From positions 4,216,001 through 4,280,000 of the forward strand of contig NC_083520.1 of assembly GCF_032362555.1 (NCBI RefSeq): a stretch of DNA of 64,000 nt, in the 5' to 3' direction. The translations under genes and the position numbers were made by a program. This document shows positions 3,879 through 50,300 of the stretch, in pieces. The notes beneath the pieces are model-generated. The model saw only the letters and a list, made by a program, of their open reading frames with translations, was not told where the DNA came from and made no database searches. Within the stretch, counting starts at the first letter, position 1. The number at the start of each line of letters is the position of its first letter. The stretch is from Amyelois transitella. Taxonomy: Eukaryota > Arthropoda > Insecta > Lepidoptera > Pyralidae.

Positions 3879-3908
3879 ATAAACATATTTTAAGATATCG
3901 CCGTAAAG

Positions 3909-7162: not shown

Positions 7163-7205
7163 TATATAAAAACAGAACATCTTAATATTGGAGTCGTTAG
7201 TCAGT
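7163..7205 (+). promoter_or_regulatory. Possible TATA box and TCAGT initiator of the second SDR gene
   Basis: TATATAAAA at 7163-7171 and an arthropod-type initiator TCAGT at 7201-7205, 29 bases before the ATG at 7234. The spacing (about 38-40 bases) is a little longer than usual, so either the TATA or the initiator may not be the one used. Confidence 0.4.
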
Positions 7206-7233
7206 ATCCAGATTCCATGAGATCGTTGTGAAA

Positions 7234-24179: not shown

Positions 24180-24303
24180 GGGGGCGCAATCGCGCGAATG
24201 GTGTTCAGCGATGGGGGGGCCGCGGCGCATGTCCAGTGCGCTGCTGCTGCCCTTTGCCTTGCTGTCTCTGCCTACTGCGGACGCGGCCAATACCACTTAC
24301 AGG
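24180..24303 (+). CDS. Receptor exon 1: 5' UTR end, start codon and signal peptide
   Basis: A TTGTTTCAG acceptor ends at 24179, so an upstream non-coding exon must exist. The ATG at 24211 has purine at -3 and G at +4. It is followed by arginines and a hydrophobic run ([14 protein letters not shown]), a signal peptide likely cut near TADA. The donor GTAAGT starts at 24304. Coding part 24211-24303 (31 codons, ends in phase 0). A second in-frame ATG lies at 24229. Confidence 0.85.
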
Positions 24304-30300: not shown

Positions 30301-33300
30301 TAGGATATTATGAAATTATCGGGGAAGCAAAAAGGCTTGAGCAATAGTTATTCTTCTTTCCCCGGGCTTTACTCCCGGTTACATCCTCAGTTCTTATGAA
30401 AACATCCCCACGACTTTGGAGAGGAGCCCGGGGTACGCCTTTGACCATGGATCCTGGATTCGATGAATCATTGTCTTACACGAAGAGACTCCCATCTGAC
30501 CTCAGCAACCCTTATATGGGAATCTTACCAACACCACGACCATGACCACACGTGATTACACATGATACACGTGGCTCTTATACCTACCTAATAATTGTTC
30601 TCAATGTTCACAAAACTAATTGGTATATCAAATCATAACACAATTACTCTAGTTAATTAATTAGACAAGTAATGAACTAAGTAGGTACTTATATTAGTTA
30701 TAGATAGCGATATAGGCAGCCGTGTGACCCAGTTCTCACCACAAAACCTGCCAGCTTCACAACTGATTTCAGATTGTATTAAAATAGTATTGTTAAGATG
30801 TCATTACATTGTGCCTTTGTTACCCAGAATTTGAGAAAGTACAACTCCAGCCTCCATCCATTTAGTTCCCGTGACTTTCACAAGACCACTATCGCTTTCT
30901 TGTCCATGTCAGTAGAGGGAGTAAGCACTAACACCTGTAACAACCCTGTGAAGGTTGCGAAAGACAGGCGGGAGTAGCTTCATCCAAAAACCTGACTTAC
31001 CCAATCCAGGACTTACGAAGAAAGAACTTCGGTAAAGGCGTACAGACTCGTCACCAGAGAGTATATTTCCTAGTATACCTCATTAGGTATTAATTAACCA
31101 GTCTAGTCATAACCAGTCTGGTCATTACCAGACTGGTTAATTTCAAAGTAAGTTTCTCTATAAAAAAGTTATTAAACCGAGTAGTAAATAATAGTTATTT
31201 CGGATACGATACATTTATATTTTGTTCGTTGGATTATAATGCCTCTGCTCTGGTAAGTCTACGAAAAATTCATATTAAAAATATATCTAGTACTGGGCAT
31301 GCACGTGTCGTGCCACGCTTATAGTCCCCTATTTATAGTTGCCCATCACAATAGAAAAACGTTTAATGTAAACGGCATAGCAGCAACCTTTAATCGTATT
31401 TGTTATGTTTTTAATACTGAGTTCAGTTTACTTTAAATACTTAGGTCGACCGTTATCGTTGTGTTAGTTCTAGGTGAAAGGTGCCAAGATTTTTAACAAT
31501 CAATAATGTGCTTAATTTATAATCATAAAGGTATCAATTAGTAACTTCATTGAATCCTACTAATATTAAAAATGCGAAAGTTTGCGAGTATGTCAGAATG
31601 TCAGTATGGATGTTTGTTATTCTTTCACGCAAGAATTACGTTGAAATTTGATATGTAGGTAGGTGAAAAAAATTTACATATAGGCTACTTTTTATCCCGG
31701 AGTCCCCGCAGGAATGATTCCACGCGGACGAAGTCGCGGGCGGCCTCTAGTTTATGCAAAAGTGAATCAAGTACTAAGACTCTAAAAAGATAAGTTCAAA
31801 GTTGGATATGGGTGGAACTAATAAGCTTTTCTCGCAGACTCTCAATCCTTAAGTGAAGTCGTTCTTATATAATTTCTTTTAAAATTCGTTTAAGAACCGC
31901 GTAACATGATCTTAAAGTACACAATATATAGAGGTACCGCTGAACAATATTGTTCTCCTTATTCAACTGATAGCGTCATAAAGTACAGTCAACAGCGTAG
32001 CAAACTAGAACATAAACCCTAAAGTCGTGGCATTATTTTGAATATAACGATGCATAATGTAGATTGCTTTGTACATCGTGTAATGTTACTTTAGAAGAAA
32101 CATGTATTCATTTCCCTGTCGTAAGAGGCGAATCAGGAAATAAGAATGTTAGGTTCTCCTATAAATAGAGTCACCATAGATTTCAGAATAAGTAAAATTA
32201 ACTAAGCAAATAAACAGTTATTAAATAAACAGGTAGAAGGGGAAGTTTTAGAAGGCCTAGAAAAACTAACCTTGATCAAAACACGTCCTGAGAAGATTGC
32301 CCTAACATGAAGAGAATTATGAATAGGATTGATGAAGCGAAAGGAGTATGCAGGGATCGTTGCAAGTGGAAAAATGTAGTCAATGCCTAAGTCACTTTAC
32401 GATTTGGCCCACTGTACACACGGCTGCTTAGTAAGCCTACTCACTGGTTTGCCTCGGGCCCGAGAGATTTGTGAAGAAGTTTAAAGACCAGCATTTACGT
32501 GTAGTTGTTTATGAAAATCTGCCCTCTGGCCTGACCTTTGCAGGAAGAAATAAAAAATCATAGAACGATGTTCTTCACACTCTTTATTAAAATTGTAACT
32601 GCACTATATAGTTTCGTTTTCAGATGTTATTTGTAAACTATACATATTTCAAGAGGAAAATTGTATTTATGGAAGATCCCTATATAAAACTGTAGGCAAA
32701 AACTAGTCAAACATAAATAAACATAGGGCCGTGAGCGGTTAGATAGCTCAGCGGCCACTCGATCAAGCGAAGAGTCCGAGTGGTCAGCACATATTTAGCT
32801 CGACGATGCGAAGGCCCTTCTGACTCAAAGCCCTTGAAAGCTAGACGGGTTTACAATATAAGCCGCTTGATATCTTTATAAATTGTATTATTGCTCAAGC
32901 CATTTTGTGTAACATATTTTATGGCAGACAGTAGAAGCAAAGGTTTATAAAGAAGCTTTCGGTGTTTAGTTTTATTATTTGCAATATATACTTGAATATA
33001 TTATGTATTTGCAAAAAAAAATTGATGCAGAAAAAAGTGGATCCATTTTATTTTTTGGAAATCATTCGGCATGATTAAATTATGTATTGTGCGGTAATGT
33101 TGTACTGAAAAAGCTTATCTTGATTGCTTACGAGCTCAAAAATGAATTCCGATCCCAAAATTTTCCCCGAATCTTTGATAATAGAACTCTGTTTTCGTGT
33201 TTAATTAACGCGAATATTACATTACACATCGTTCCATTTCATCTGACACGCCTCATTTAATAGGATAGCACTTGCTTATAATAACATTCTCTAAGAGCTC

Positions 33301-36300
33301 AATCCTGGATTAAGGGGGTCAGTGGAGAGCCTATTATCAGATACAGGGAAGATAATGCCTGCGTCACAAAATAATAAGAGTATGTAACAAGTGTCTTGTT
33401 TTAAATAAAGAAGAAAGTTCACTTTTTATTTTATAAATTAAGAGCGACCCTCCCCGACTTCGCACGGGTAGCATTTATAATAATAAACCTTCCTCGAAAA
33501 AACCCTGAAACAGGAAAAAAATCTGTCCATAACTTTCCAAAATTAGCGCATACATAGACAGAGAAAATGGAAGACTTTATAGATAGTGTACTGATAGTGT
33601 AGATAATCGCACATACCTATCGCATTAAATGCACAATGGTCAAAAATGCAATGTAATAAGTTTCACACTATTATCTTTCAATATCAGTTTGGTCCAAAGG
33701 TTCGACTGGCAGAGAATGCCTTGTGGCATTAAGTCCACCTGTTGTACATTTAACGTGCATATAAAGTTTAAAAAAATATTATCTATTACCCATTATAAAG
33801 AGATAAGAATTCATAAATAGTAGAATGTCTTACATTTAGCTATGAACTTTTACTTTATTAAGTACTTGCATATAAGAACAATACATCTCACTAAAGGACA
33901 AAGAAATTCGTTATAAACATCTGTTATCTCTTCAATTTGTGCTCACGTTGAGACGAAGTATTCCCCCACAATAACCATGGGAATTCTCCGAGCATTTCAA
34001 TTATGAAGCTGTTGTCACGGGGCTGTTTGTGTTCCATTTGCACAGTAATTCCTGGGCTTTGACTACTGTACTGTTATTCGAAGAAGCGTTACATGCAATG
34101 TTTGTACACGCTCCATCGTCCTTTTCGGAGTTTCCAATCAATATATGTTTGTTTTACTAAGTCGTGTTCACACTTTGGTGATGGTTTAATTCTCGGTGAC
34201 CTACTATCGAAGACAAAGCCTCACTAACAATACTATGTCTCCTGGGTATACCTACCAATGCAATATATTTTAAATTGACTAAATTTCAACCAAATCGGCG
34301 AGTTAACATTAAGAATGTCAAAAAACGAATATGTAACGTTTTTATGTGAGGGCACGAATCCCTAAAAGTTTGTGGACAATATACGCCCTACACAAGAAGA
34401 CCTTCATTTGAATGAACAAGACATGACGCTATAAACACGCAAAGGGAAAGCAGCATTATTCAAAATAGGGAAATGTAGAGTTTGGAAAGGAAATGAACTA
34501 CCGTAAACTAACTGCCGTGTGGTTCCCGGCACAAACATAAAAAAGAAAAGGATTGACTCGTAAATAAGGGAAACTTAGGATTCTTCATTTATGCGATTGG
34601 CTTGCAACCTGTCACTATTTGAATTTCAATTCTATCATTAAGCCAAACTGCTGAACGTGGCCTTTCAGTTTTTCAAGACTGTTGGCTCTGTCTGCCCCGC
34701 AAGGCCGTAGACTGATTGACCGTGACTATATGCATGTATGTATGAAATACAAGAAGATGCTACTTACTTAATATCTACAAAAAGTTTTTATTTTTTTTTC
34801 AGACATTATTTAGTCTAGTCTAAGATGGATTACCATATTCATCTTTATTTGTAACCATGATCCAATCTGGTCTGATTTCCTTGTTAGGGTCACAAAGGTC
34901 GGACATCAGTAACTCTACTGTAGTCACCTGACCTTACAACCCTTGGGCCTTGGCAAAGGCAAAGGACTGTGGGTCCGAGCATGACAAAAAAAGAAGGACA
35001 TTGATGAATGAAATGAGATTAAAATGTACATATATGTAAAATATTGAACCGAGTCTCGTTCCCGGAAGGTTAGAAATTTTTTATTATCTTCACTTACTAA
35101 ATCAGTTCATATATACCTAAGATTTATTAACATATTTTTTCTTTTAACTATAAATATAATATGTATCCACACAAATAATACATTACATTTAACCTTATAG
35201 TAATTTATGTATTTACGATTTAATATGTTGTTTTTAAAAACGAAATGCAAAACGTGAAATTAAGAAAAAAACAATTAACTTATGATAGTTGTCGCTTTTA
35301 CCTTTACCTAGTCTATCTTTTTTTTATGGAAGGGATTATCTACCTAAAAATGACATTTTTCTCGATAAACAAACATACACATAGTAGAACATGGACATTG
35401 ACATGGCTTTGATACACAAAGGAAAAGCTAAAACTTTGTGAAAATCCGTTAAAAACACATACTAGCATACATACCTACATTCTGCGTGTGACCGACACTC
35501 AGCTATTACATCGCTTATAAATTCTGGCGGTCAAACTGTCCGTTGCCTTAATTAGAGGACCCGCTGTTACAAATAGCATCTGCTGTTGACATCACACCCA
35601 CAAAATATTGAGTACACAGAAAAATAAACACAAAACAGGTCAAGCAGGCACTTGACCGCAAAAATTCTGACAAATGTTTTCATGGCTTCTAAAAGAAACA
35701 GGTGTGAAAGGTACAGGAAAGTGTGCACACATATCAAATCTTATGGGGTAGACAGAATGGATAGTCAAAAGACGAGAACTTTTTTGTCTTCTCACTCATG
35801 GTGTTAGACTTAGTTAAGTCGTCCGGTCTATCCGACAAGTCCCATTGAGAAGCCCGGAGTTCTGGAGTTTCCGGAGAGAAGTCCGGTGTCGTCTTTGACC
35901 ACGATAAGTCAGGTTTTTACACAAAGCGAATCATGTCTGATCTCCGCAACCTTTGCAGGTCATGGTTACACATCCAGTTGCCTAAATGTGCAGGATTTCA
36001 AGAGATTATTTTGGTAGTCTTATGAGGTAGACAGAGTAGATAGTCAACAGACTACTGAAAAGCAGCGTTAAGTCTACTAAATGAATGATAATACTCTTAC
36101 AATAAAAGTGAGATTCAAAGGTAAAGTTCTTCTCTCCAAATGGTACCTTGAAATAAGAAATCTATCTAAATAAAGTCGAACCACCTCAAAACGTTTCTAT
36201 CAACGTAATGCCCTGGCTGAATCAAATTATTACCACAGTCCTTGAAAAAGATATTCACTCCAATTTTTCTGAATTAATTTCACATTAGTCACCTGGTGCT

Positions 36301-39300
36301 TGACTTTGAGAAATTACTGAAAGCGGGATATTTGTCGAGTTTTGCTGCCTGTGTGTGTATATCATGTGTGTGTGTGTGAATTCTGGGATATTAATGTAAC
36401 ATTTTAGTGAGTCTTATTTTTTTTTCAAACAAGCTTTTACCCACCGCTTCGCCCGCGCCAATTTAGTTCCACAAATAAAATATTACAGGATTTTTCGCAA
36501 ATCCCACGGAAACTATGGTTTTTACCGGGATAAAAAGTGCCCTATGTCCTTTTCCAAACTCGAAATTATATATACGCAATATTTCAAGAAGACAGGTTAA
36601 GTAGATAACGTGTAAAGAGACAACAAATATAATAAACTTTCCATCGTATTGCCCATCCAGATGCCTGCAGCTCCGCCCGTGTAAGTCGAAAACCCCTAAT
36701 CCACATTAGACAACTATATGTTCAATTAAAATTTCTAGACCCAGCATATTGAGCTGTGCGTTTTCTATCAGTCGTTCACTCCGTAACAGAAGAGTTTTAT
36801 AAAGGTAGATTCGAGATCGGGAATTAAGAGAAATCCTCTCTTAGTGACCTTTAGAACACATAAGGTATATACCAAATTTCAAATCTCTAGACCCAGCGAT
36901 ATGGTCTGTGCGTTGATATATCAGTTAATAAGTCAGTCAGTGTCCTCTTTATATTTTTAGATATTGTTATTATTTCATAGTATGCATTCAAAACATTTTT
37001 AAAATTATTCGATAAAATAAAATTTTCTCTTAGGTACTAGAAATGGATACTTATCTTTGTAGAATCTCTACGCCGGTTCGACTTTCGTAGGCTGATACAA
37101 TGCTCGTAGCACGTCTACAAAATGTTCTAGTGATAATAGAATAAGCTCTTCACTCGTACTTCCAAGGTTCAATATATACCTATAGCTCATCGATATATAG
37201 CCGCGCTGTAGTGAATTTCTCTAGAATTTATTCAACGTTAGTATATAGGTATATACAGTTATATATAAGTATAGTTTTTAGTGTTTCAGTTCTAGGTTTA
37301 CCAATTTATTGCACATAATAATCTACTACTGTAGGCATTTAAATAAATTGCACGTTATTTCTGAAACGGATAACGAACACGAATGCTGAGCCACAATGTT
37401 CGCAATATTTCTGCTCCAAACCTGTCCAAAACATAATATCTGCGATCTGCTATCCTACATTTGCTCGAATATTCCACAGACAAGTTTATTTGAAATACAA
37501 ATTGAAAATGAACGAAATTTTTTTAAGCGCTTACTTTTATCATCAATAAATTTTGAACGGCTGAAAAGATTTTTATCAAAATACTGAATTCTTATAAACA
37601 AATGCATTAATTTACTTTCAAACGGCATTGAGGCATACCTACCTGTTTTTCCTCGGGTACATACGTACTCTTATTAAATATTTTCTTTACTTCTCCTACG
37701 TTTCATGTGCAAAATTGAGGTTATTCACATGCTTCCCACCCCCTCAATTAATCACTTTATCCATGTACTAGTCTTTTATTTAAATTAAACAAATCTGAAA
37801 ACACTACATATGTAAAGACGGCAGTCACATAATAACGTCATACTTGTATCTTTTAATCGTTATTTTAATAATAGTGATTTCTACGTAAAATGTGCCGATG
37901 AAAATCTCTAAGCATCAAAGTATTTCTTCTTATATTTATACGTAATACATCTAAGGTCGCGGGAATGCCAGTAAACGTGAATCGGAAATAGCTACCTATT
38001 TCTATTCAGTGGAAGCGTCGATGTTTCTAACTTCTTTAAGTTAGTTCTATTTTGTGCTTTTTTTTTTGTTTTATTTACGTGTAACGACGTGTCAGCACTC
38101 TTAATAGATGACGTGAAGGAATTAACACTATATCTCAGGTAAAACTGATGATGTAAGCTGGACTAGGCTTTTGATTAGACTGTCGTATTAACAGAGCCAC
38201 GGTCGTGAAATCGCTCCGCAATTAAATTGAGTACATAGTTTTACACGTTTTATCCATGCAATCAAACTTAGGTACGCTTTAAAACTTTCAAGAATTATAT
38301 TATCGAGTGGTAACTTTGCCTCGAAATTATTATTACGATAAAATTATTTAAATTTAGCTTCAGGTATAAGATGTTGAAGATAAACTTAGGCTTTGAAGCA
38401 GAAAATAAAGGAATACAAATAATAATAGTGTATGATTACAGGACGAACTGGAATCATCATTGCGCCTAGTTCACGCGGTTGCGAGTGGGGCCACGGGTGC
38501 GTTGTGCGTCACCCAGCGGTATGGAAGGCTACTGGCTCCACTACATGTGAGCAGGTGGGACTCTGTCCGCGCCAGGGCAGACCTCGCCGCGAACATACTC
38601 CATCAGTTAGGATTAGAGAATGCTGGTTAGTACTTTGTTCTTTTTGGGGTCGATTGATTTGTATTTTCTGGACTTATGGCGTTGCTTGTTGCATTTTTTT
38701 ACTAAGACATCAAAATTTCTATCACAGATTTTCTCACGGCCGTTTCCCAAGGGCTAGTGATGGGGGCGACGATTCCAGAACGTGCTGTTGGGGCAAGGGC
38801 CATAGCCTTGCGTGCTGATGGCGTTGTCAACAGCGCTGTGGCCTGGCAGAGGTTTGGGACAGCTGACCCTGTGGTGTCTGCTTCGCCGCCCTTGGAGGAA
38901 CAGCCTAATCCTGAATACCCTTGGTAAGTTATATCTTATAGGTAATTTCCGCTCGAAACAGATGTGAATGTAGAGATATTTTCCAGCAGACTTATTCACG
39001 AATTATGACAATGACAAATCTTATTTCCCATCGCTCTAACAGTTAACCAAAATGTAAAGAGTGAGAATATAAAATAAAGGTATGCTTTGAAAACGATCTT
39101 TAATTATGTACTGCGCGGAGGTAGCCGTTATTAAAAGTTTCCAACGGAATATTTTGTAAGTTACAAACTAATACTAATTAACACTTTGAAGATACTAGAA
39201 ATTTGAAACAAAATTCTATAATTAAAAAACAGTATACTCTTTCTGCACAGATTTTAAAGGCAATTAAATTAAGGGAAAGCTTTATGAACTTGGGTTTCTC

Positions 39301-42300
39301 CCCCTTGGCATATCAACCGGTACCTAACTATTAATCTTAACCTTTTGAACGTGGTTCGAATATTTTCCAAGACTACTGGCATTGTCCAAGCCGATTAAAG
39401 AATAAAGACGTGAATATACTTATGTAAAAAAATGTTTTTCGTTCATGATTCTAGGTACGAATCAGTTCACAACAGCAAAACACTTCGATCTACAAAGTTC
39501 ATGCCTCCAAGCCCTGGGGCCACCATGGAGGGGTGGTGGACATACCCTTATTACAACTGCGAAGCGAAACGCTGGTTGCTGTCATATACTGTGCCCGTTG
39601 CTACAATCCGAGGGTAATTTACCATATTTATAACTATGGGAACGTTACTTTGTAACAGCATTGATCCTCAAAGGAAACAGCTGTGATTTATTGATAAGAT
39701 TTAAAAAAAAGAAGGAAGAAAAGCATCGGTTAAATAAAGCTGATATAAGTCGTGTCCCAAGCTTAAGCTTTCCATTCTCTTCATCAATGAAAACCGAATT
39801 ACCTACGGAGTTTTAGCATACCTATAATTCTGGCAAGGTATCCTAAGTAAATTACCTATCTTATTATTCATTTTACGAAATCTCTGAGGTTATTATAGAA
39901 GATAGATGATGGAAAGATAAGGAATATGCCTTAACGTTAGGGAATTGCTCCGGTGATCAGCACTTGCTCCTCAAGTACTAAGAAAATCGACCTTTTTCTT
40001 GATTATACGGCTTTTATAATGCTTTTTAACCCTCCATATACCTAATGTCTGATTAAAATCTGAAAGTTTCACTGTAAATTCAACATTATGTCTTCGTGAA
40101 ATAAGCTTTAAATTTGCGTTTCAGGTTAAAAGGCATCGTTTCGCTGGATATAGACATATCTAGTTTAGAGATCAACCAGTGCGAAGTTATCGCTGATGAA
40201 GAAAATGATAACCAAATATATTCTTTCCACGGCACCCATAAGTGCCCTAATGAGACCACTTACGTGAGTAATTAGATCTTATCACAACTAGAAGTATCTT
40301 GATTGATTCTTTCTTAATGATATAGGTAACTAATTATTGTCTATGCTCCGGGGCTTTGCTCCCTAAGGAATTTACAGCTTATGCTAAGTACTTCTTCCTC
40401 TTGGCTATAGTCCCGATTACCTACATCCACAGCACTCTGTCTAGGAGCTCGGAGTACGCCCTAATAATCGATCGCTGAAAAAATAATTTTTCACTTTCAT
40501 TTCAGTGTGAATACAAACCGAATAGAGAAGTAACTGTACGACATTCGGGATGGGCCCGTGGACTGTACATTTGCAGATGTCGCCCAGGATATTACTCTAT
40601 AAATCATCCAGAGGGATTTAACGGGTCTTTAGTAGAAGGTATGGTTGTTGTTCTAAGTTAGTTTAGTCGTGCATTCAGCTGTGTATTGTGGCCCAAATAG
40701 CTTGACACAGGTACTTAGCTAACTAAACTGTATTTAATGTACCTATTTTATAGGTACAATCAACCGACAGATCAAATTATCCTACATAGAACTCTATAAC
40801 GCCGTTATAGAGAGTAGATTGTTAAGCTGTTGACTATGCAAAGTAATAGATAGTAATTGTACCTAAGCAAATAGGTCTATAATTATATAAGATCGACTAA
40901 AACCACTACGAAAAATTACCAATACGTAATGTAGAACAGATAATTATGTATGTACCTATGAATCAGTCAAGAGAAAGCTCTTCACATTATCTTTGCTTGG
41001 GTACTTCCAAAAACAATTCGTTAATGTTTGACAGTGACAGACAAGATTTTGGTTTATTTATGATTTCGAACGTAAGTGATTTTTCTTGAATGTAGTGGAA
41101 ATAACAAAAAAGATCACTTGTATGTATAAAAATTGCGAAAAAAAAAAACTCGAACTGCGAAGAAAAATTAAAACAAAACAATAATTATTTTAATTACTGA
41201 TTTTAGAAAAGCATGACTTTTACCAAGTCAATAAAATTTCCTTAAATATTTTTATTGACTTGGTAACACTAAGTTTGTTTGTAAACAAAGAAAACTTTTG
41301 TGTAAAAGAAACAGAATCTTCGATAAATATTACAATTTGTCTGTAATTTTTCAGTTGCGTATCAAGAATATCAAGAAAACCGATTAGATAACTGGAGCGA
41401 ACCGTACGAGTGTTTAAAATGCCAACCTGGTTGCGAAACATGCCGCGGTCCAGAGCCCTGCCTGGCAACTTACAACTGGCCTTTTCGGTAGGCACATTTT
41501 AAGGATTTTAAGTTTGTTTGAAGGCCTGTTCGGCGCAGTGGTATTGTACCGGGTTTGATCATCTTTAAAAACAATTTTAATCTGTTCTTTCAGTTATTTA
41601 GGTACATGACAAAGATCACAAAAGTAATGTGCTAACTTTGGGAACAAATGATTTATTAAATCAGTTTAATAGTTAGTGTTTGAGCTTATTAAGACACATT
41701 CAGACACCTGTGGAAGGTAACCCTAACTGATGGTTAAAGTGACCTGAAATAAGTAAAGTATTTTGGATCAACTCATACCCTGAGCAGCATTGCAATACAG
41801 TAGAATTTAGGTAGACTATGAATTCTGCTAAGAGTACACATTTAACAAGAAACATGACTTAAAGTTTAAACATCTGTGTGAGTTTAAATGATTGTAGGAC
41901 AGTTTGTTATGCCATATCTATGCAATATTGCAATAATAAATAATGATAACTTAATTTTTGTTAAACATTTCAGGATATCCCTCCTAGTAATATCAGTGAG
42001 TTGTGCTGTGATGACGGTTCTACTAGCCATCTACACAAGACACCATCGGCGAGTGAAGGTGTTCCGGGTAGCGAGCCCGGTCTTCCTGTCCATTACGTTA
42101 CTGGGATGTGCTATTATGTATATGGAGGTAAATATCCAACCGTACAAGTTTTTATAAAATGTCAAAATGTGATGAAATTTAAAAAATGGAATTAACTTAA
42201 TTTAAAGAAAATTATGACACATAGAAAAATTATACATTATATATTTAACGGCCTCTGTGGCTCAGCGGTACTACGCTTGTCTGTGACACCGGAGGTCCCG

Positions 42301-42531: not shown

Positions 42532-45500
42532 ATACATAGTCACGTCTATATCCCTCACGGGGTAGACAAAGCCAACAATCTGAAAAGACTGATAGGCTAC
42601 ATTCAGCTGTTTGGCTTAATGATAAAATTGAGAATCAAATAGTGTCAGGTTGCTAGCCCATTGCCTACAAGAACAATCCCAAGTTTAAATTCCTATCCCT
42701 TCGTCGCCTTTTACGACATCATACACATAGGTGGTATTTTCCTTAATTTAGTGTAGTTGTTCTTACTACCAGAAATAAAAATACAATTCAACCAGAACAA
42801 ATTGATAATTTAACTCTTTTTTTCTTTCAGATGGCAGCTATATTCCCAGTGTTGGATAGATATTCATGTATAGCGACAAAATGGACTCGACACATGGGAT
42901 TTTGTATCACGTACACTGCCTTGCTCATGAAAACATGGAGGTATTTGCAGTCATTATAAATTTAACACCTTCTCTAAGTCATCCTCTATATCAGTGTAAC
43001 CCTTCATTAAATAAATTCTTCAAATGTTAACTTAAAATTTATTTATTTATGCTCTATTGTTTAATACAATCTGTACAGCACAATAAGCATTAAACTTAGT
43101 ATTTCTCCAAAAACAAAAAGTATTGGCATAACTTTAAAGGTCCCATTTTTGCAATTCCCCCCTTTTCAATTTAAAATTCATACACTTCTTGCCCAAAATC
43201 GTAGAGAGATTTTTATTGTTCCACTTGTTTTGATCCCTTTTTGGTATTATTTCAACATTCTACCATCTAGCTTAACATGACCATAGATGCTTTTGATTAT
43301 TCACTCATTCTTCCCCATGAGGGATAAAGAAAGACGTAAAATTTGTATGCATTCGTGTTGCAGGGTATCCCTTACATACCGAGTGAAGTCTGCCCATAAG
43401 TTGAAGTTGACCGACAAACAATTATTACAATGGATGGCGCCGATTCTTCTCATCATGCTGGTCTACTTGGGGACGTGGACGCTGTCCGCGCCGCCCGATG
43501 CTGAAGTTGTAAGTTGACATACCCTCTTCATTATAGAAATTGGAATAATATTAGGCAATAAAAAAGTTATATTATATGCAATTTTTTATACTTGAAAGTC
43601 TTACCTGTACATTCAACTGGATGCGGAACCATGATTTAATAGATATGGGTTTGGCTTTCCCTGCAAAGGTTGCGGAGTTCAGATAGGCGTCGCTTTGCGT
43701 AAAAACTTGACTTACCCAATCAAGGATCCACGGTCAAGGATGTACCCCCGGCTCCACTCCTTCACGACTCTGTGGCGCAACGGCAGTGCGCTTGTCTGAC
43801 TCAATAGGTGTCGGATTCGTATCTCGGTCATGGCATGATAAGAAACGAATCTTTTCTGATTGGCCTGGCTCCTGGATGTTTATCATAACACAAATTTAAA
43901 ACTTACTTCGATGTGTGTGATAAAAATAAAGTAGTGATAATGTAACCGAGACTATAGTCTGAAGGAAGAAGACTTGAATCTTCAAGTGTAATGTGTCTTT
44001 ATTACTTATTACTTTACGGGATAATTTAAAACCTTTGTATGTCCATCCTCATATTCTGATATTTTTAAGATTCAGGTGATAATGAAATTTCCCTCAAAAT
44101 GTTTTTAATTGTAATTTTCAGATCAAAGACAATAAAGGATTGAAATTCAAGCAATGCACGTATAACTGGTGGGATCATAGTTTAGCTATAGGTAAGTTTC
44201 AATTTATTTATAAGTAAATATTTAATTATCACGTGGCAGGTTATTCTGTGAAAAATCGTAGGAATTTGTGAGAAATCAAAATATAATAATAATAAGTTTT
44301 TAATTATTTTCAGGTGAAATTCTTTTTCTACTATGGGGCGTGAGAGTGTGCTATCGGGTTAGACACGCCGAGAGTCTGTACAACGAGGCGCGGCTCATAT
44401 CCATAGCTATTTACAACATCTTCACCGTCAACTCTATGATGATCGCTTTCCAGTGAGTTATTTGTAGGATATTGACAAAATTTTCCATTTTTTTTAAGCT
44501 TCAACAGCAAAAAACACGATGTCTATTGGGTCGTTTAATATTATACTAATCAATATCTCATGCTATATTTATCTCGTTTCAGTTTACTCATCCTGCCACA
44601 AGCCGGGCCGGACATAAAATATCTTTTAGGATTTATTAGAACACAGCTGTCAACATCCACCACAGTGTTATTGGTATTCTTACCTAAGGTATGTTTTTAC
44701 AGTTTACTTCAGTGTACTTCATATAGAAAAACGCTTTGAATTGAACTTACACGCAAAAGCTAGTATTCAGTAGGAACGGTATTGTAAAGAAGTTTACGTA
44801 CTTAATGTTAGATTCTTACTCCATTGTAAAATGACGGTCATATTTTCCGTGTATCTTCTTTTGACAGACGTGATAATATGTTTGTTATATACTTTTATTT
44901 GGTCAACCAGGTGCTACGCGTAGTTCGCGGTACGGGAGATACGTGGGACAGCCGAGCTCGAGCCCGAGGCGTTCCCGCCTCGTCTTCCCTCAACGGCATC
45001 GGGTTAGTGCCTGACGAACCTCCCGACCTCTATCAGGAGAACGAGGAACTAAAGGTGACAATTTTGAATTACATTTATTTTTAGAAAAATGACAGTCTCT
45101 ATGTTGCGTGTCTATGGTGCTGGAGATACGTGGGGCAGTTGAGTTCAAACCCGAGGAATTCTCGCTTCGTCTTATAAACGGCATCGGATTAGTGCCTGAC
45201 CTCTATCAAGTGAACGAGGAACTAAACTTTAACTTTTTCTGATTGGCTTGGGTCTTGGATGTTTATCTATATAAGTATTTATTATAAAATATAGCATCGT
45301 TGGGTTAGTATCTCGTAACACAAGTCTCGAACTTACTTCGAGGCTAACTCAATCTGTGTAATTTGTCATGTATAAAAAAAAAAAATTTGAAACTCATATT
45401 CAGGTGGTTTCAAACGAAAAATGACAGACGCTATAATGTGTGAACTGACTATGGTAAAGACCTCTATCAAGAGAACGAGGAACTAAAAAACTAAGAAAGT

Positions 45501-47079
45501 ATGTACTAAGTAATTTAACAAGTAGCTTTTCTATTTAAGTGGTTCTGATGAAATTCTGATATTAGGTGATGTACTATAATAATTTTGCATAGTTTATGGT
45601 ACCTACTAGGAAAATGTGGAAAAATACCGTAACACACTAGTGATTAACAAAGTTTTGAATAAACAAAAATAATATATATTTTTTTATAATTCCAGGAGGA
45701 AGTGCAAAAGCTAGCAGCTCAAATAGAATTCATGAAGATAGTACAAATGGAGATGCACAACAGACATTTGAGGCCCCGCGTCGGCAGTTATTTCACGGCT
45801 AATGCCAGCGCCAACGCTAAACAGAGTCCGATGCATCCTAACACTGTCAACATTACACAGGTAATTACATTATTGTCAGGCACTAAAATAATCTGAAAGT
45901 GAATATAAATTTAATACGAATGTAGGTACCTAATAAAAATGCAAGTAATAATGATGCTGCGCAGGTCAGATGGGAGTCACTTCGAGTAAAAATCTAACTT
46001 ACTCAGTCATGTGTCATTGTAGCTTTCGAATGGATGAACCAATAGGCTATTTTACACCATGTAAAAAAAAATATAAAAATGCACGTATCTTATAGATTTT
46101 GTAAAAAATAAAAGAAAAACATCGATCATTATTCATAAAAGTGCAATATGGATTTTATAATTCAATTTAAAAAATCCTCTTTTTTAATCTGTTCTTCAAA
46201 AGTCGAAAACGCTATCCGCCATGTTGGGTACTGACGTGACGTCATACTTTTAGTAAACAAATATCGAATCGAAAACATATTGATGATGTCAGGCTCTGTT
46301 TATTTTGAAATTTTAAAATTTCTATCACGTTTTTGGGTTTTTACTCTTTAATAATTTAATAGAATCATGGAAGACGGTTTTGTGAAAGCAGACAATATAA
46401 ATCTACTGAGGATTAATACGTTGATGGTGGCGAAATTTTTTGCGTCCAATCCCGATTTCTGTTCTGCTGAGTTAAGATTTTTCTGGTGTTTTTATACTTG
46501 TATTCTTGCATTCAGGAACAAGACACCAACAATATGTATTGTAATTCATTATTACAAAAATCTTTTTACTTTAGTCTTACGTAGAGCCGTATTGTTTACT
46601 AAAAGTATGACGTCACGAGTCAAAACAGCATGGCGGATGGCGTTTTCGCGCGAAAATACAAAATCATAAATAATAAATCGTTTTTAGAGCACTTTTCGGC
46701 TTCAAAAAATTTTAATAAAAATTCTATAGGTATAACACAGTCTCAGGATTGATTTAAAACAGTTTTCAAAAAAGAGTGTAATAGCCTATTCAAATTTGAG
46801 TGAAAGTTGTATTAATCAGTAAGGTTCTCAACTAAAAATGTTTGATGAAAATCGGTCTAAGATTCGATTTCTAATGTATTTTATCACAACTCCATCTCAA
46901 GTGTATCAAATGAAAGGGCTTGAGTAGTAGGTACTTAATTTAAATTAAAAAAAAAAATCACCTTATTCTATGTACTATTCCCAATTCATAGAATTAGTTG
47001 TTTTTTTTTTTAATTATTTAAATGTATTGTGATTTGTTTCCAGTCAATGGACAGCACGGAGTGGGCGGGCCCCGTGTGA
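24211..47079 (+). CDS. Orphan class C GPCR of the GPR158/GPR179 (mGlyR-like) family, 16 coding exons
   Basis: Hand-assembled gene: 24211-24303, 38442-38625, 38728-38923, 39455-39613, 40125-40263, 40506-40638, 41355-41487, 41974-42127, 42831-42940, 43364-43508, 44122-44191, 44314-44452, 44583-44688, 44911-45054, 45696-45860, 47044-47079. All junctions are GT-AG and phases agree, giving 701 codons. Order of parts: signal peptide (1-27), Cache-like ectodomain (about 60-235, with [16 protein letters not shown] and [11 protein letters not shown]), Cys-rich EGF-like module (244-345, with [10 protein letters not shown] and CxxCxxGCxTCxGPEPC), seven membrane segments (about 346-587, ending VFLPK at TM7), and a short tail with a charged helix ([12 protein letters not shown]). 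The ectodomain plus seven-helix order is that of GPR158/GPR179, whose vertebrate GPR158 binds glycine and recruits RGS7. Insects have several paralogues (in Drosophila, Smog and CG31760-like). I cannot tell which this is, so no symbol is given. The vertebrate proteins have much longer tails. Located at the plasma membrane. Confidence 0.9.
24403..24459. repeat. Perfect inverted repeat: 26-bp arms, 5-nt loop
   Basis: Arms 24403-24428 and 24434-24459 are exact reverse complements, separated by TTAGT. It lies 100 bases downstream of the receptor exon 1 donor. No element ends or target duplications are visible. Confidence 0.9.
25210..25375 (+). repeat. R3 repeat fragment
   Basis: Contains GAGGAAACCTGCATATTTAA, GGTTGCGAAAGTCAGATGA and ACTAACGCCAGTGGGAGAAG, diverged from the R3 body. 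Confidence 0.5.
25704..25803 (+). repeat. R1 repeat 3' fragment
   Basis: CTGAACATGGCCTTTCTGAG, TTGGCGCTGTCTTC, AGGGATAAAGAC and a TATGTACGTACCTATGTAT tail match the last third of R1. Confidence 0.6.
25845..25900. repeat. Perfect inverted repeat: 26-bp arms, 4-nt loop
   Basis: Arms 25845-25870 and 25875-25900 are exact reverse complements around TAGT. The sequence is unrelated to the hairpin at 24403, but the arm length and small loop are the same. Confidence 0.9.
26930..27036 (+). repeat. R1 repeat, internally deleted
   Basis: CTATGGATGTTGTAAAAGGC is followed almost directly by GTTGGTCTACCCCGCAAGAG and a TTATGTATGTAC tail, so the middle of R1 is missing. Confidence 0.65.
28409..28510 (+). 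repeat. R3 repeat head fragment
   Basis: TTGCCGAATCGGTAGGTAAG, CTCGGCCATGTACCAATGAC and GTTGTGAACATTAGTTTG match the first third of the R3 copy at 9721. Confidence 0.55.
28541..28695 (-). mobile_element. Helitron-like repeat (GCTGTTGCCCGCGACTT family)
   Basis: Begins ACTAGCTGTTGCCCGCGACT, has AATCTTGATCATACAGTTAG and CCATTTCAGTCAAAAATACT, and ends TTTTATTATATGTATAGA. Nearly the same as 16903-17065. Confidence 0.6.
29293..29535 (-). repeat. R1 repeat, near full length
   Basis: A CATACATACATATAATCACG start, GGGGTAGACAG, GGCCACGTTCAGCTG, TTGCTAGCC, and a degraded end GCCGAAAACCACACTC. Confidence 0.75.
30210..30266 (-). repeat. R1 tail fragment
   Basis: A CATACATACATACATAT run followed by GGCTATATCCCTTATC. 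Only the 3' end of R1 remains. Confidence 0.45.
30355..30545 (-). repeat. R3 repeat, partial
   Basis: TTTACTCCCGGTTACATCCT, GGAGAGGAGCCCGGGG, ATGGATCCTGGATTCGATGA and AGACTCCCATCTGACCTCAG are the R3 body in reverse. Confidence 0.6.
30930..31072 (+). repeat. R3 repeat, partial
   Basis: GAAGGTTGCGAAAGACAGGC, GGGAGTAGCTTCATCC and AAAACCTGACTTACCCAATC match the R3 body. Confidence 0.55.
31093..31141. repeat. Alternative-pairing inverted repeat
   Basis: ACCAGTCTGGT and ACCAGACTGGT form a 12-bp stem (31111-31122 with 31127-31138, 4-nt loop). An earlier near-copy at 31093-31107 can pair with the same right arm (15 positions, one mismatch), so two hairpins compete. Confidence 0.7.
31556..31753 (+). 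mobile_element. Complete Lep1-like Helitron
   Basis: Starts CCTACTAATATTAAAAATGC then GAAAGTTTGCGAG. Has TAGGCTACTTTTTATCCCGG in the middle and ends GGACGAAGTCGCGGGCGGCC then TCTAGT. This is the cleanest copy of the type in the window. Confidence 0.65.
32268..32415 (+). mobile_element. LINE 3'-end remnant
   Basis: A LINE-like 3' sequence (TTGATGAAGCGAAAGGAGTA, TGCAGGGATCGTTGCAAGTG, AATGTAGTCAATGCC) corresponds to the C-terminus coded by lepidopteran non-LTR elements (AKGVCRDR-K followed by a V-V motif). It is interrupted by stops. Related to the copy at 56040. Confidence 0.5.
33440..33565 (-). mobile_element. Helitron-like fragment
   Basis: GCGACCCTCCCCGACTTCGC then ACGGGTAGC is the reverse of a common GC-rich repeat terminus. 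The remainder, ending near ACATAGACAGAG, is decayed. Confidence 0.4.
34513..34745 (+). repeat. R1 repeat with a deletion in the first third
   Basis: The head GCCGTGTGGTTCCCGGCACA is intact. The CCATCTCTTTCCC block is lost. The ATTGGCTTGCAACCTGTCAC and CTGAACGTGGCCTTTCAG blocks and a TGCATGTATGTATG tail are present. Confidence 0.75.
35825..36000 (-). repeat. R3 repeat, partial
   Basis: GAGAAGTCCGGTGTCGTCTT, AAGTCAGGTTTTTACACAAA, GTCTGATCTCCGCAACCTTT and CCTAAATGTGCAGGATTTC are the R3 body in reverse. Confidence 0.55.
36428..36640 (-). mobile_element. Helitron-like repeat, reverse orientation
   Basis: Starts CAAGCTTTTACCCACCGCTT then CGCCCGCGCC, with AAAAAGTGCCCTATGTCCTT (shared with the copy at 14292) and an AT-rich end near 36640. 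Confidence 0.5.
36660..36960 (+). repeat. R4 dispersed repeat, two tandem partial copies
   Basis: TTTCTAGACCCAGCATATTG and, about 150 bases later, CTCTAGACCCAGCGATATGG, each followed by a CTGTGCGTT core and a CAGTCGTT or CAGTCAGTGTC end. These are the best examples of the R4 family. Confidence 0.55.
38442..38625 (+). CDS. Receptor exon 2 (ectodomain)
   Basis: Acceptor ATTACAG ends at 38441, donor GTTAGT at 38626. 184 bases, enters in phase 0 and leaves one base over. Encodes [13 protein letters not shown] through [10 protein letters not shown]. Longer frames here in other registers are shadows caused by GC-rich codon use. Confidence 0.88.
38728..38923 (+). CDS. Receptor exon 3 (start of Cache-like domain)
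   Basis: Acceptor TATCACAG, donor GTAAGT. 196 bases, encoding [20 protein letters not shown] through QPNPEYP. Phase continues exactly from exon 2. Confidence 0.88.
39274..39425 (+). repeat. R1 repeat, heavily decayed
   Basis: CTTTATGAACTTGGGTTTCT, GAACGTGGTTCGAAT, TTTTCCAAGACTACTGGC and AATAAAGACGTGAAT follow the order of R1. It lies in the intron before exon 4. Confidence 0.5.
39455..39613 (+). CDS. Receptor exon 4 (Cache-like core)
   Basis: Acceptor TGATTCTAG, donor GTAATT. 159 bases. Encodes [28 protein letters not shown] and [13 protein letters not shown]. The aromatic-rich W-x-x-P-Y-x-N/D-C pattern and the following strand are the family signature that decided the call. Confidence 0.9.
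40125..40263 (+). CDS. Receptor exon 5 (end of Cache-like domain)
   Basis: Acceptor GCGTTTCAG, donor GTGAGT. 139 bases. Encodes [16 protein letters not shown] (typical last strand of a Cache fold) and then the first Cys of the Cys-rich module (HKCPNETTY). Confidence 0.9.
40380..40475 (-). repeat. R3 repeat fragment
   Basis: GGCTATAGTCCCGATTACCT, CATCCACAGCACTCTG and CTAGGAGCTCGGAGTACGCC are diverged reverse R3. Intron 5 of the receptor. Confidence 0.45.
40506..40638 (+). CDS. Receptor exon 6 (EGF-like, Cys-rich)
   Basis: Acceptor CATTTCAG, donor GTATGG. 133 bases. Encodes CEYKPNREV and [13 protein letters not shown], with EGF-like cysteine spacing. Confidence 0.9.
41220..41266. repeat. Perfect inverted repeat: 17-bp arms, 13-nt loop
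   Basis: Arms 41220-41236 and 41250-41266 (TTACCAAGTCAATAAAA and its reverse complement). It lies in the intron 88 bases before receptor exon 7. Confidence 0.88.
41355..41487 (+). CDS. Receptor exon 7 (Cys-rich linker to TM1)
   Basis: Acceptor TTTTTCAG, donor GTAGGC. 133 bases. Encodes [18 protein letters not shown], the six-cysteine linker typical of class C receptors, then TYNWPF. Confidence 0.92.
41974..42127 (+). CDS. Receptor exon 8 (TM1-TM2)
   Basis: Acceptor ACATTTCAG, donor GTAAAT. 154 bases. Encodes [19 protein letters not shown] (TM1), a basic intracellular loop ([11 protein letters not shown]) and [14 protein letters not shown] (TM2). Confidence 0.93.
42250..42526 (+). mobile_element. 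tRNA-derived SINE (R2) with poly(A) tail
   Basis: A tRNA-like head (42250-42322) has an A box TGGCTCAGCGGT and a B box GGTTCGAATCC. It is followed by a unique body (TTTTCTGATTGTCTTGGGTC, CTCGTAACACAAG, CTTCGAGGCTAACTCAATC) and an A-run of about 35 (42492-42526). It sits in the receptor intron after exon 8. The long pure A tail suggests recent insertion. A true tRNA is unlikely because of the body and tail. Confidence 0.85.
42528..42728 (-). repeat. R1 repeat immediately after the SINE tail
   Basis: ATACATATACATAGTCACGT, CCCTCACGGGGTAGACAAAG, GGTTGCTAGCCCATTGCC and CGTCGCCTTTTACGACATC. It is cut off before the R1 head. It directly abuts the poly(A) of the SINE, so one probably inserted into the end of the other. 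Confidence 0.75.
42831..42940 (+). CDS. Receptor exon 9 (TM3)
   Basis: Acceptor TTCTTTCAG, donor GTATTT. 110 bases. Encodes [20 protein letters not shown] then [15 protein letters not shown]. The extracellular Cys before TM3 is the conserved disulphide position in this receptor class. Confidence 0.92.
43364..43508 (+). CDS. Receptor exon 10 (intracellular loop 2, TM4)
   Basis: Acceptor TGTTGCAG, donor GTAAGT. 145 bases. Encodes [20 protein letters not shown] then [18 protein letters not shown]. Confidence 0.92.
43640..43765 (+). repeat. R3 repeat fragment
   Basis: GGTTGCGGAGTTCAGATAGG, AAAACTTGACTTACCCAATC, AAGGATCCACGGTCAAGG and CCCCCGGCTCCACTCC. It lies directly before a SINE R2 copy. Confidence 0.6.
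43767..43990 (+). mobile_element. tRNA-derived SINE (R2), older copy
   Basis: Head CTCTGTGGCGCAACGGCAGT, a degraded B box, body TTTTCTGATTGGCCTGGCTC and CATAACACAAATTTAAAACTT. No clean poly(A). Confidence 0.65.
44122..44191 (+). CDS. Receptor exon 11 (extracellular loop 2)
   Basis: Acceptor AATTTTCAG, donor GTAAGT. 70 bases. Encodes [20 protein letters not shown], carrying the partner Cys of the TM3 disulphide. Confidence 0.9.
44314..44452 (+). CDS. Receptor exon 12 (TM5-TM6)
   Basis: Acceptor ATTTTCAG, donor GTGAGT. 139 bases. Encodes [20 protein letters not shown], then [20 protein letters not shown] and MMIAF. Confidence 0.92.
44583..44688 (+). CDS. Receptor exon 13 (TM7)
   Basis: Acceptor CGTTTCAG, donor GTATGT. 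106 bases. Encodes [20 protein letters not shown], then [13 protein letters not shown]. The FLPK ending of TM7 is a class C hallmark. Confidence 0.93.
44911..45054 (+). CDS. Receptor exon 14 (start of cytoplasmic tail)
   Basis: Acceptor GTCAACCAG, donor GTGACA (weak). 144 bases, both ends in phase 0. Encodes [20 protein letters not shown] through [11 protein letters not shown] symmetric exon that has decayed duplicates downstream at 45115 and 45459. Confidence 0.88.
45115..45227 (+). pseudogene. Decayed duplicate of receptor exon 14
   Basis: Lines up along most of exon 14: GCTGGAGATACGTGGG, AAACCCGAGG, AACGGCATCGGATTAGTGCC, CTCTATCAAGTGAACGAGG and AACTAAA. It has an in-frame TGA after the GDTWGS-equivalent residues. 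It lacks 12 bases between two GAC words and lacks the donor. It lies 60 bases after the real exon and cannot be spliced in usefully. Confidence 0.85.
45229..45388 (+). mobile_element. SINE R2, 5'-truncated
   Basis: Starts inside the SINE body (CTTTTTCTGATTGGCTTGGG) and ends with the CTTCGAGGCTAACTCAATC block and a short A-run. No tRNA-like head. It separates the two exon 14 duplicates. Confidence 0.8.
45459..45488 (+). pseudogene. Second, shorter duplicate of the end of receptor exon 14
   Basis: GACCTCTATCAAGAGAACGA then GGAACTAAAA repeats the last 29 bases of exon 14 with one change. The flank just upstream (AAAATGACAGACGCTATAAT) resembles the flank of the first duplicate (AAAAATGACAGTCTCTATGT), so the copied unit was larger than the exon. 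Confidence 0.75.
45696..45860 (+). CDS. Receptor exon 15 (helical tail segment)
   Basis: Acceptor TAATTCCAG, donor GTAATT. 165 bases, phase 0 at both ends. Encodes [20 protein letters not shown] then a polar stretch. The [19 protein letters not shown] junction with exon 14 makes a heptad-like helix suited to coiled-coil pairing, as in metabotropic class C receptors. Confidence 0.88.
46041..46790 (+). mobile_element. DNA element with long inverted repeats and a short ORF
   Basis: Ends are inverted: AATAGGCTATTTTACAC on the left and GTGTAATAGCCTATT on the right. The inverted relation continues inside for about 200 bases (CGAAAACGCTATCCGCCATG against CATGGCGGATGGCGTTTTCG, and CGTGACGTCATACTTTTAGT against its reverse complement), so each arm is about 200 bp with decay. 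Between the arms is an ORF at 46367-46669 whose first part ([10 protein letters not shown], then [20 protein letters not shown]) recurs in the element at 56394. No transposase domain is visible. No clear target-site duplication. It lies in the last intron of the receptor gene. Confidence 0.75.
47044..47079 (+). CDS. Receptor exon 16, last coding exon
   Basis: Acceptor GTTTCCAG. Encodes [11 protein letters not shown] then TGA at 47077-47079. The stop is followed by C (UGA-C), a leaky context. The frame stays open for 33 more codons in very GC-rich DNA up to TGA at 47179-47181 (see findings). Confidence 0.85.
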   Translation, partial: SMDSTEWAGPV

Positions 47080-47343
47080 CTGGTGGCGCTGAGCGACGGC
47101 GGCTGGGCGTGGCCGGGCGCGCGGCCCGCCGGCGCGCGCGTGCGCAGGCGGCCCGACGCGCGCGCGCCCGCCTTCGTGTGACATTATATATTTACAAATA
47201 AAGATATGTTGTATCATTTAGTTCAACGTTCGTTTCTAAAACGCTAGTGATGAAGAAGCGGAGGAGTAAACTGGCTGCAGTTTTGTTATAACGAGTAGAA
47301 CTGTGAGCTTGCATGTGACGCGTGGTCGTGCTTTATAAATAAA
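47080..47343 (+). other. Receptor 3' region with GC-rich block and poly(A) signals
   Basis: A block of extreme GC content (47080-47180) is followed abruptly by AT-rich DNA. AATAAA signals occur at 47197-47202 and 47338-47343. The transcript may extend further. Confidence 0.6.
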
Positions 47344-50300
47344 AATATATTTATTTTTAGAATACCTTATTCGAGGTTCGCTTTTAACTAGTGACGGTTA
47401 GCGACAGCGAGGAGGCGTGTGTCAGCGCCAGGCCATTATGTTAGTTGGCGTAGTGAAACTCAATAGTTAGAAACTTGAAGCAGGATGTGCGCCCGTTTTC
47501 GTGTGACCATACGAAGACTCGCCCATACGTTTTAATATTTTCAAATAAGATGTCAGTACAATGTAGCTTTTTGAGAGAAAGTGAAAAAAATAAAGAAACA
47601 ACACTATGTTAGCTAACATGCAACTATAAGTACCTACTTGATTTTTTGGATGCCATAAAATTGAAAATTACTCATGAAAAAAAAAAATAATTTAATTTAT
47701 CAGGATTTTTTAAACACTAGTTAAATTAAAGAAGAAATATAAAGCCAGTGAATTTTTTTTATGCCACCATAACTTGGTTTGCAATGCCCCTTTGTGTGGA
47801 ATTTTGATATTTTATAAATTTGTATAGGAACTTTTGTCTCCCATGTGGTAGTCATTCTGTAGATTTGGTTGGTTTAACGTCGGCATGCAAAGAAAATAAA
47901 TATATAAGACTAGATAATATGTAGTTATTGACTTCATCAAAGTCGTACTTATGTAGGTATAATTTCGAAATGTAAGCTGTGAGATGAGGGGATTCTTAAA
48001 CTGTTGTTTACAGGAATTTTATTTGTAAGTATCTACCTATGTAGTTATTTTTTTATAGTTGGTAATGTATTTAAAAATATCTATTTAACATGAAAAAAGT
48101 TAAATCGCTATTAGATGAGTCCCAAAGAGTCCCAATTTTTTCAATAGAAATATAGTCGGGGCTGTGAGAGGAATTCAATCGACAATTGCAAAGTTAATAC
48201 ATTCAAGCAACAAATAATAACACCATGTTTCATATCAATTATTAACTTTAAAAATTAAATCACTGGTTTTAAAAATCGAATTCATAAAAAGAATATTTAA
48301 ACTCCATTAAATTTTAACGTAATTAATGAACTTATTGCTAATAGCATTCTTTGTAAGTAATGATAAACATCAAGACAATCCACACATTATTGGTCCACAA
48401 GCTGTTGATCGCGCATTAAATCTCTAATATTTAACTTTTTATTTAATTCTAGTGTCTAAACTCTATTATTGCAAAGTTTCATGAAAATTCCGTTCCATAG
48501 TTCTTGCGTGAAAGAGACACAAACACATAAACATCGTTACAAACTTTTGGTATTTAATTATTCAAGTAGTATTTAATTTGGCAGACTCGACGCTTGTTAG
48601 CATTCTGTGATAGAAACAGCAGATAAAATCTTAACATTCATGAATACTTATAAAAAAATTATATCTTAAATGTGATGTGTAAGATAGGTAAGCGGAATCA
48701 GGTATGTTCCTTTCTAACTATTTAGCGGGAGCTATGTCCAGCCCTCACCGCCACAAAAAAGATTTTACAACACAGGTGGACAAAGATTTGATACATTACT
48801 TCACTAAACGAAATTACATGAAAGATAAAGAACAATCGGCACGACTCTATTTTATTAAATGATTATATTCCAATTTTGTCTATTTATTTATGTAAATACA
48901 TGTTTTTTATAATTTTTAAGTCTATGTACATTTTACTAGACTGAAAAGTCGCTTAGTCAATCAAATACTTGTATCTACTTTGTAAATAGGTAATGTATAC
49001 TTTTGCTTTGAGTTTAATTTTTGTGGTGTTGTAGTTATATAGCATAGATATAAAAAAAATTATTGTTGAATTGATGCTCTGTATGTGTTTAGGGCTGACA
49101 ATAAGAAAAAACAAAAAAGTTATTTTAATAAGCCTCCGGAAATCAAATAAACAATCAATGAAAAGTAAACAAACATTAATTAACAATTTGTTGACTAATC
49201 AAAATTATTTCATAAAATGTTTTAGTCTAGTTATTTATTGTATACTATAGGTACATAGAATAAATAAAATGATTTGTAAATATGATGAAAATTCATCGTA
49301 AAGCATAAATTCTAAAGTGATGTACATAAATTAGTGATTATTTATTTTATTTTATTTATCGTCTGTGATAATGTATATTCGTCATTATTAAATGTTATTA
49401 TATAAAAGCTTTATATTGAGATATGTCATTTGGATGAAAGACGCTTACACGCTGTGCACATAGCACAAAAATTATCTTTGCTAGATTTTTGTTGATTTAT
49501 GAATGTGGATGGAGCAAAAAAATTTAGAACAATTGTAAGTGGAAAGATCTACCTTGTATTGCCTATCACTCCGTGAAAGAGGCGTAATTTGTAGGTAGTA
49601 GTGAATGTCAAAATAGTATCTGCAATTCAGACTTTCTTGAGCAGCCTCATAACCTATCCCTGGGTGGTATACTGTGGCTCAGCAATCCGAAGTGATCTTT
49701 GTTTGATGACGTCATTTCTTGTTGTCTTCCACTGATGAATCTGAAGTCTTACAGAATACTCTAACGATACCCATCGGCCACTTGGTTAACCCATGTTTGC
49801 TTTTCATGGCAACATTTCTTCTTCACAATTATTTTTTTATTTTTACATTTAATATTTACGGAGTACAATTTTTTGCCTGTTAGATACATACTTTATGTAT
49901 CTAACAGGCAAAAAATTGCCAAAAAATTGCTTGTACTCCTTGCTCACATGTTACAAAACATTTTAATCGTCCTGCTAGCTTTTGTCCCAGATTCAATAAA
50001 AAGTTGCTTTGCCTAGCGTTTAGAAAGAAATTCATTCATCCAAAATTTCGCTTTCATTTGCAAATGGTAAGTACCGTTGGGGGCAAAAACTAATTACTTT
50101 TTCATATACTTATTTATATCGATCGTGATTAGTTATATCTGCTCTTGCCCAGCTGGATTTCGAATAAATATTATTATTGACTGAACAGAGTAATCTCATA
50201 ACATACTTATATTTAAAAAAAACGATAACAATAAATTAAAAAAAAACTTTTTTTATGCTTAGTAACCAATTTTAATTTTACATTTTTATGTTTCTGCTAA

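Follow-up and report, generated by a model that had tools for sequence, protein, structure and literature searches.

Candidate functional readthrough of a UGA stop codon at the end of a GPR158/179-type receptor gene in the moth Amyelois transitella

This report concerns the end of a receptor gene of Amyelois transitella (Lepidoptera, Pyralidae), where the coding sequence reaches a UGA stop codon and the same frame then stays open for a further 33 codons. The window, that is, the whole stretch of DNA analysed, comprises 64,000 nucleotides (nt) of the forward strand (RefSeq assembly GCF_032362555.1, contig NC_083520.1, positions 4,216,001 to 4,280,000), and positions are counted here from its first letter. 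It contains the whole receptor gene (24211-47181). Judged by its sequence, the gene is a GPR158/179-type class C receptor and the ortholog of fly CG31760. The product exceeded the curated Pfam cut-offs for both 7tm_3 (152.4 bits, cut-off 33.5) and GPR158_179_EC (68.5 bits, cut-off 28.1), which it shares with GPR158/GPR179 and with fly CG31760. The best PDB matches of the receptor were GPR179 and GPR158 (7she, 8d1b), and many homologues are named 'probable G-protein coupled receptor CG31760' in their source records. In the vertebrate GPR158/GPR179 chains the best-scoring stretches extend as far as query residue 632-635 (558 for 7ewl), and the moth tail is left uncovered.

All coding exons lie on the plus strand. 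Exon 1 (24211-24303) holds the start codon and the N-terminus, corresponds to the first 31 residues of the A. transitella protein P0002, and is followed by the donor GTAAGT. Exons 2-8 are located at 38442-38625, 38728-38923, 39455-39613, 40125-40263, 40506-40638, 41355-41487 and 41974-42127, and exons 9-15 at 42831-42940, 43364-43508, 44122-44191, 44314-44452, 44583-44688, 44911-45054 and 45696-45860. Together with the last exon (16), exons 2-15 make fifteen pieces with AG/GT at each inner junction and a single open frame. The residues encoded by exons 2-15 and the end of exon 16 are identical to P0002 (670/670), and with exon 1 included the identity covers the entire product (701/701). By eye, the intron frame 45093-45239 resembles the preceding exon (44911-45054) as a partial degenerate duplicate, with a further trace near 45460.

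The coding part of the last exon (47044-47076, plus strand, phase 0, preceded by AG at 47043), to which a matching end was found in lepidopteran clusters, is closed by the first stop, UGA followed by CUGG (47077-47079, plus strand). The extension, LVALSDGGWAWPGARPAGARVRRRPDARAPAFV, which is the predicted readthrough product, occupies 47080-47178 on the same strand and is terminated by a second in-frame UGA (47179-47181). No ATG was present in the extension when the sequence 47080-47178 was read. The leaky stop context of UGA then C is present (TGA C at 47077-47080). The original prediction, which was made from the sequence alone, had described a first stop of UGA plus C and a frame open for 33 codons in extreme guanine-cytosine (GC) content, and both hold, from the TGA at 47077-47079 to the TGA at 47179-47181. 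Its description of an Arg/Pro/Ala-rich extension ending in valine, as the short form does, is likewise confirmed by the composition (Ala 8, Arg 6, Gly 4 and Pro 4 of 33 residues, C-terminus A-F-V); LVALSDGGWAWPGAR is a peptide within the predicted product past the first stop. The first AATAAA after the exon start, a candidate poly(A) signal, lies at 47197-47202 (plus strand), 15 bases past the second stop. On a transcript ending there, the sequence after the first stop would thus be nearly all extension.

The first stop, as judged from homologous proteins, is a real terminator. In the homologue search, of which the best 120 of 257 matches were listed, 12 entries carried lepidopteran names (P0002 to P0013, each representing one cluster), and a matching end was present in 10 of these 12 clusters. 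All 10 ends read TEW, then A, S, P, G or nothing, and then GPV (9) or GRV (1, Aricia). The two exceptions are Choristoneura P0009, which runs in another frame, and Eumeta P0013, which has another end. Because this end is shared by most of the lepidopteran clusters, an artefact of sequencing or a recent nonsense mutation is very unlikely. The conservation concerns the position of the end in the protein, since codon identity is invisible in proteins, and for Choristoneura the codon is read as TNA-C. A second homologue listing (120 of 228 matches) added 37 new entries (P0121-P0157). Among the insect homologues gathered from the matches listed, 142 of 157 end in V, L, I or M, and D or E stands at position -2 in 102 of the 142; these 157 include isoforms and partial proteins and are not independent. 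In the moth forms, position -2 is the G of GPV in 9 of 10, and the tenth ends in GRV. Annotated readthrough in flies was also looked for, and among the matches listed the 37 new entries P0121-P0157 had neither an X nor such a tail. Several of the fly models P0125-P0136 and P0147 have, in place of the short GKV/EKV end, a long second C-terminus that ends in PIVV; this PIVV tail is an alternative produced by splicing at the corresponding place of the receptor.

The extension stands out by its composition, with 87% GC compared with 34% in the window. Among all 102-nt stretches there, the richest, also 87% GC, starts at 47063, and the next richest elsewhere has 69%. The change-points of the GC-rich block were placed at 47049 on the left (support 47048-47063) and at 47172 on the right (support 47170-47178), so that the block begins close to the exon start and finishes close to the second stop. 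The claim that it stops exactly at the second UGA was not upheld, as the best change-point, 47172, with its support, lies within 1 to 9 nt before the TGA. Little composition break was found at the first stop (74% to 89% GC, log-likelihood gain 1.9). The warning that high GC makes open frames likely by chance was justified, with 176,651 of 200,000 base shuffles of the block staying open, and the opposite strand of the region is open in all three frames (57 codons each). Because most shuffles at such GC stay open, the openness of the frame was dropped as evidence. The distribution over codon positions is more informative. Coding composition in this single genome was judged by position count and not by the Z curve score of the readthrough papers: the A/T bases of the extension (13 of 99) fall at codon positions 1/2/3 as 5/8/0 (P = 0.0033), and a bias as extreme occurred in 562 of the 176,651 open shuffles. 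The GC content of third codon positions (GC3) is 1.00 in the extension (33/33), 0.91 in the coding part of the last exon (10/11) and 0.30 to 0.65 in exons 2-15, exon 1 being left out. The codon phase of the extension is not readily given by chance.

Comparative evidence came from the model P0009 of Choristoneura fumiferana (Tortricidae). Over this region it reads GQHGMAGPGVTGRSERQWLALAG..., which matches frame 2 of the window DNA, and its 3' end appears to be mis-spliced, running past the stop in another frame. Since P0009 is read in this other frame, a comparison of the extension became possible: in frame 0, the back-translated model determines most bases at codon positions 1 and 3 and hardly any at position 2. 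Before the stop, the Choristoneura DNA is compatible with DSTEWPGPV, the tail of Cydia, followed by TNA-C, and 20 of 23 informative bases are those of the window. In the first 13 codons past the stop, 22 of 29 informative bases fit the window, and offset 0 was the best of 97 (22 vs 17). In sets of 200,000 shuffles, this value was attained 3 times when bases were permuted and 5 times when the order of codons was. Eleven of these 13 codons can encode the window residue (L V A L S D x G W x W P G), a number that 12 of 200,000 codon shuffles equalled. If a gap of two codons is allowed, the last four codons fit again at F-V-stop (6/8 informative bases, best of 12 offsets), where 635 of 100,000 random 12-mers reach 6. 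The gapped Choristoneura extension would be 31 codons long, with a second stop that is compatible only (TNA).

A decayed copy of the extension is located 308 nt downstream, in the 3' flank. Its first piece (47387-47434, plus strand) aligns without gaps over 48 nt to the start of the extension (47079-47126), and its second piece (47489-47507, plus strand) repeats the end of the extension and the second stop (47164-47182) at 17/19 bases, in a frame that differs relative to 47388. The call rests on the two collinear pieces jointly. None of 2000 dinucleotide shuffles of 47191-47700 reached either copy score, and 1 of 2000 did for 47370-47520. In register, the copy reads TAA (47385-47387), then LVTVSDSEEACVSARPLC, and then TAG after 18 codons. 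Compared with the extension it shows 11 GC-to-AT differences and 1 opposite. Of the 29 informative Choristoneura bases, 12 agree with both stretches and 6 with neither; 10 agree with the extension alone and 1 with the copy alone (10 vs 1, P 0.012). This comparison suggests that, of two related stretches, the one behind the receptor UGA kept its sequence and frame; it is support, not proof, because base composition differs too, and the copy serves as a rough internal control for the extension. An AG at 47360 would join in phase 0, giving NTLFEVRF before TAA-CTAG as read from the sequence, and the copy may be a putative former or alternative last exon.

The octamer CGTGTGAC is common to both stops. 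The window has 5 sites for it, where 0.5 would be expected, at 30721-30728, 35485-35492, 47073-47080, 47175-47182 and 47500-47507, all on the plus strand, and three of these sites lie in the receptor end or its flank. The shared flank that had been pointed out around the two stops therefore exists, but it is no evidence of a readthrough signal, because the 19-mer at the second stop recurs (17/19) in the decayed copy.

From these comparisons we consider it probable, with some reserve, that the UGA-C of this moth GPR158/179-like receptor is a conserved functional readthrough stop. The main weight of the case is in the first 13 codons and the codon phase. We infer that the extension is translated, that selection acts on it at the protein level, and that it has an effect on the receptor. 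The original prediction of readthrough was thus supported in part, by the codon phase, the shared end, the fit of the first 13 Choristoneura codons and the loss of frame in the copy, but not by a significant synonymous bias. The alignment with related moths that it had proposed was made with Choristoneura only; 11 of 13 codons can encode the same residues in that frame, synonymous-biased changes did not emerge, and the stop is read as TNA-C.

This reading can be set against known systems. Alignment-based catalogues of readthrough exist for flies and mosquitoes, the phenomenon is described as abundant in most insects tested, and in the evolutionary candidates of flies and mosquitoes the first stop is usually unchanged and mostly TGA, with a 3' cytosine as a sign (PMC5100048). 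The conserved readthrough genes known from Anopheles and Drosophila (Jungreis et al., 2016, PMC5100048; Dunn et al., 2013, PMC3840789) likewise have UGA-C at a conserved place and a second open frame in the same exon, with coding-like composition ending near the second stop; they were judged on an alignment of about 20 species, whereas the moth case is judged on one genome and one indirectly read relative. In another moth, Automeris io, Distal-less is also split by an annotated stop, with readthrough raised as a possibility, and the authors of that 2024 genome paper were aware of no documentation of readthrough frequency in Lepidoptera (PMC10917498). Distal-less is a transcription factor, whereas the case here is a receptor. 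The mammalian opioid receptors OPRL1 and OPRK1 belong to another receptor class than the moth receptor. They too are G-protein-coupled receptors in which UGA is followed by CU and an extension of 28 to 34 residues lengthens the C-terminus (PMC4132726). In the parts of the literature that the searches returned, readthrough of a CG31760/GPR158-type gene was not found described, and a fly or mosquito ortholog may sit in supplementary candidate lists; likewise, no paper devoted to moth readthrough genes was among the literature matches listed.

Several points weigh against functional readthrough. Of the seven definite Choristoneura differences, 5 fall on position 3, 2 on position 1 and 0 on position 2 (13, 13 and 3 informative bases, respectively); the contrast of 2 vs 5 is not significant (one-sided P 0.19), so synonymous bias is not shown by the differences alone. 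Codons 14 to 30 fit without gaps at 12 of 36 informative bases, little above noise, and at F-V-stop the gap was placed by eye, with the alanine codon and one valine base misfitting. The comparison covers a single further species, whose DNA was deduced from a protein model that leaves the middle base of most codons unfixed. The copy score of 32 is close to those of GC-rich tiles (30, at 24001 and 23751), the reversed sequence (27) and the best local shuffle (33), and the differing base composition of extension and copy itself draws the extension nearer to GC-rich Choristoneura. In a search covering proteins of about 24-75 residues, no short database protein carried the extension. The D. melanogaster entry P0137 (isoform B), the sole such entry among the matches listed, stops at its stop and has no X. 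The folds of the RNA at 47080-47181 and 47085-47150 were no better than those of shuffles (z +0.97 and +1.27; 168/200 and 180/200 shuffles fold at least as well). UGA accounts for just 25% of ribosome-profiled readthrough events in Drosophila (PMC3840789), and the claim that UGA-C is favoured in insects thus holds for the evolutionary candidates (PMC5100048), not for all profiled events. OPRL1 and OPRK1 have the strong UGA CUAG, whose deletion nearly abolishes readthrough, whereas the moth has UGA CUGG (PMC4132726). RNA structure as a readthrough stimulator was accordingly dropped as a candidate, the folding of both segments being matched by most shuffles, and a stem is apparently unneeded here. 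Moth DNA was further sought by pattern in bacterial and viral collections, where 171 and 30 stretches matched and 0 were confirmed.

The main rival, a less likely one, is a conserved GC-rich non-coding element of the 3' untranslated region (UTR), an RNA or DNA signal whose open frame would be a by-product of composition. The ready openness of shuffles at such GC agrees with it, as do the partly similar copy further down the 3' flank, which recalls repeated UTR elements, and a Choristoneura fit that is strong only right after the stop. Such an element leaves the codon phase unexplained, with A/T wholly avoiding position 3, and the conserved part is compatible with the same residues in frame 0. 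The downstream copy, moreover, lost both sequence and frame, the fold is ordinary, and none of the 9 Rfam matches listed at E up to 1 fell on the extension. It is more doubtful that the stretch is GC-rich by chance and has no function past the stop, the Choristoneura similarity being misleading. Open frames are common at high GC, the comparison relies on a single species whose gene model runs in another frame, and the extension misfits in its middle part (12/36), but the similarity found was reached by only 3 and 5 of 200,000 shuffles and the codon-phase bias has a P of 0.003.

Alternative splicing that drops the stop is improbable. Of three GT-AG pairs found, two could keep the frame and remove the stop (72 nt, 47076-47147; 87 nt, 47061-47147), both weak by eye, and removal of the first (GTGACT ... 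GCGCAG) would place the second half of the extension directly after GPV. This intron would measure 72 nt, be very GC-rich and have no pyrimidine tract, and both introns would remove the part that fits Choristoneura best (LVALSDGGWAWPG for the 72-nt one). Least likely of all is another recoding of the UGA, by selenocysteine or by A-to-I editing to UGG: either route would make UGA a sense codon, but a G before the edited A is a poor editing neighbour, and no SECIS family was among the 9 Rfam matches listed for 46900-50200, all of which were below gathering scores. Lepidoptera with sequenced genomes were reported to be without selenoproteins as of 2008 (PMC2500217), which also counts against selenocysteine.

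If the UGA is a functional readthrough stop, some ribosomes would decode it by a near-cognate tRNA and continue for 33 codons in the same frame, yielding a receptor with a longer tail; near-cognate decoding at a leaky stop, where the 3' base matters, is the route given for insects (PMC5100048). The likely effect would be an exchange of one C-terminus for another. A valine closes the short form and is a putative PDZ-type ligand; in the long form it would be buried behind an Ala/Arg/Gly/Pro-rich tail that itself ends in A-F-V. The long tail is probably unstructured, and many fly extensions are unstructured as well (PMC4999894). That readthrough would hide a PDZ-type ligand is a reasonable, if hypothetical, reading of the two tails. 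A more far-reaching proposal, which we put forward only tentatively and hold to be unlikely, is that a readthrough cassette has acted as a C-terminal switch since the split of Pyralidae and Tortricidae, with a basic, valine-ended tail hiding the short one, and that the stop and the extension were duplicated in tandem.

Elsewhere in the window, 8 of the 9 Rfam matches fall on a palindrome at 49851-49928, to several microRNA models and on both strands, below gathering scores; it looks like a small inverted-repeat element. The ninth match, also below its gathering score, is to a small nucleolar RNA model at 47946-48031. Long single-exon frames at 3894-4700 and 7201-8028 look by eye like tandem short-chain dehydrogenase paralogs, and frames at 1465-1866 like the remnant of a third.

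The case would add to a mechanism for which flies and mosquitoes already provide examples. A receptor tail set by termination efficiency would be a testable case, with the adjoining decayed tandem copy as a natural control, and a protein model in the wrong frame, such as that of Choristoneura, can carry hidden comparative evidence. If the cassette proposal were true, the second copy would show the birth or death of such a cassette.

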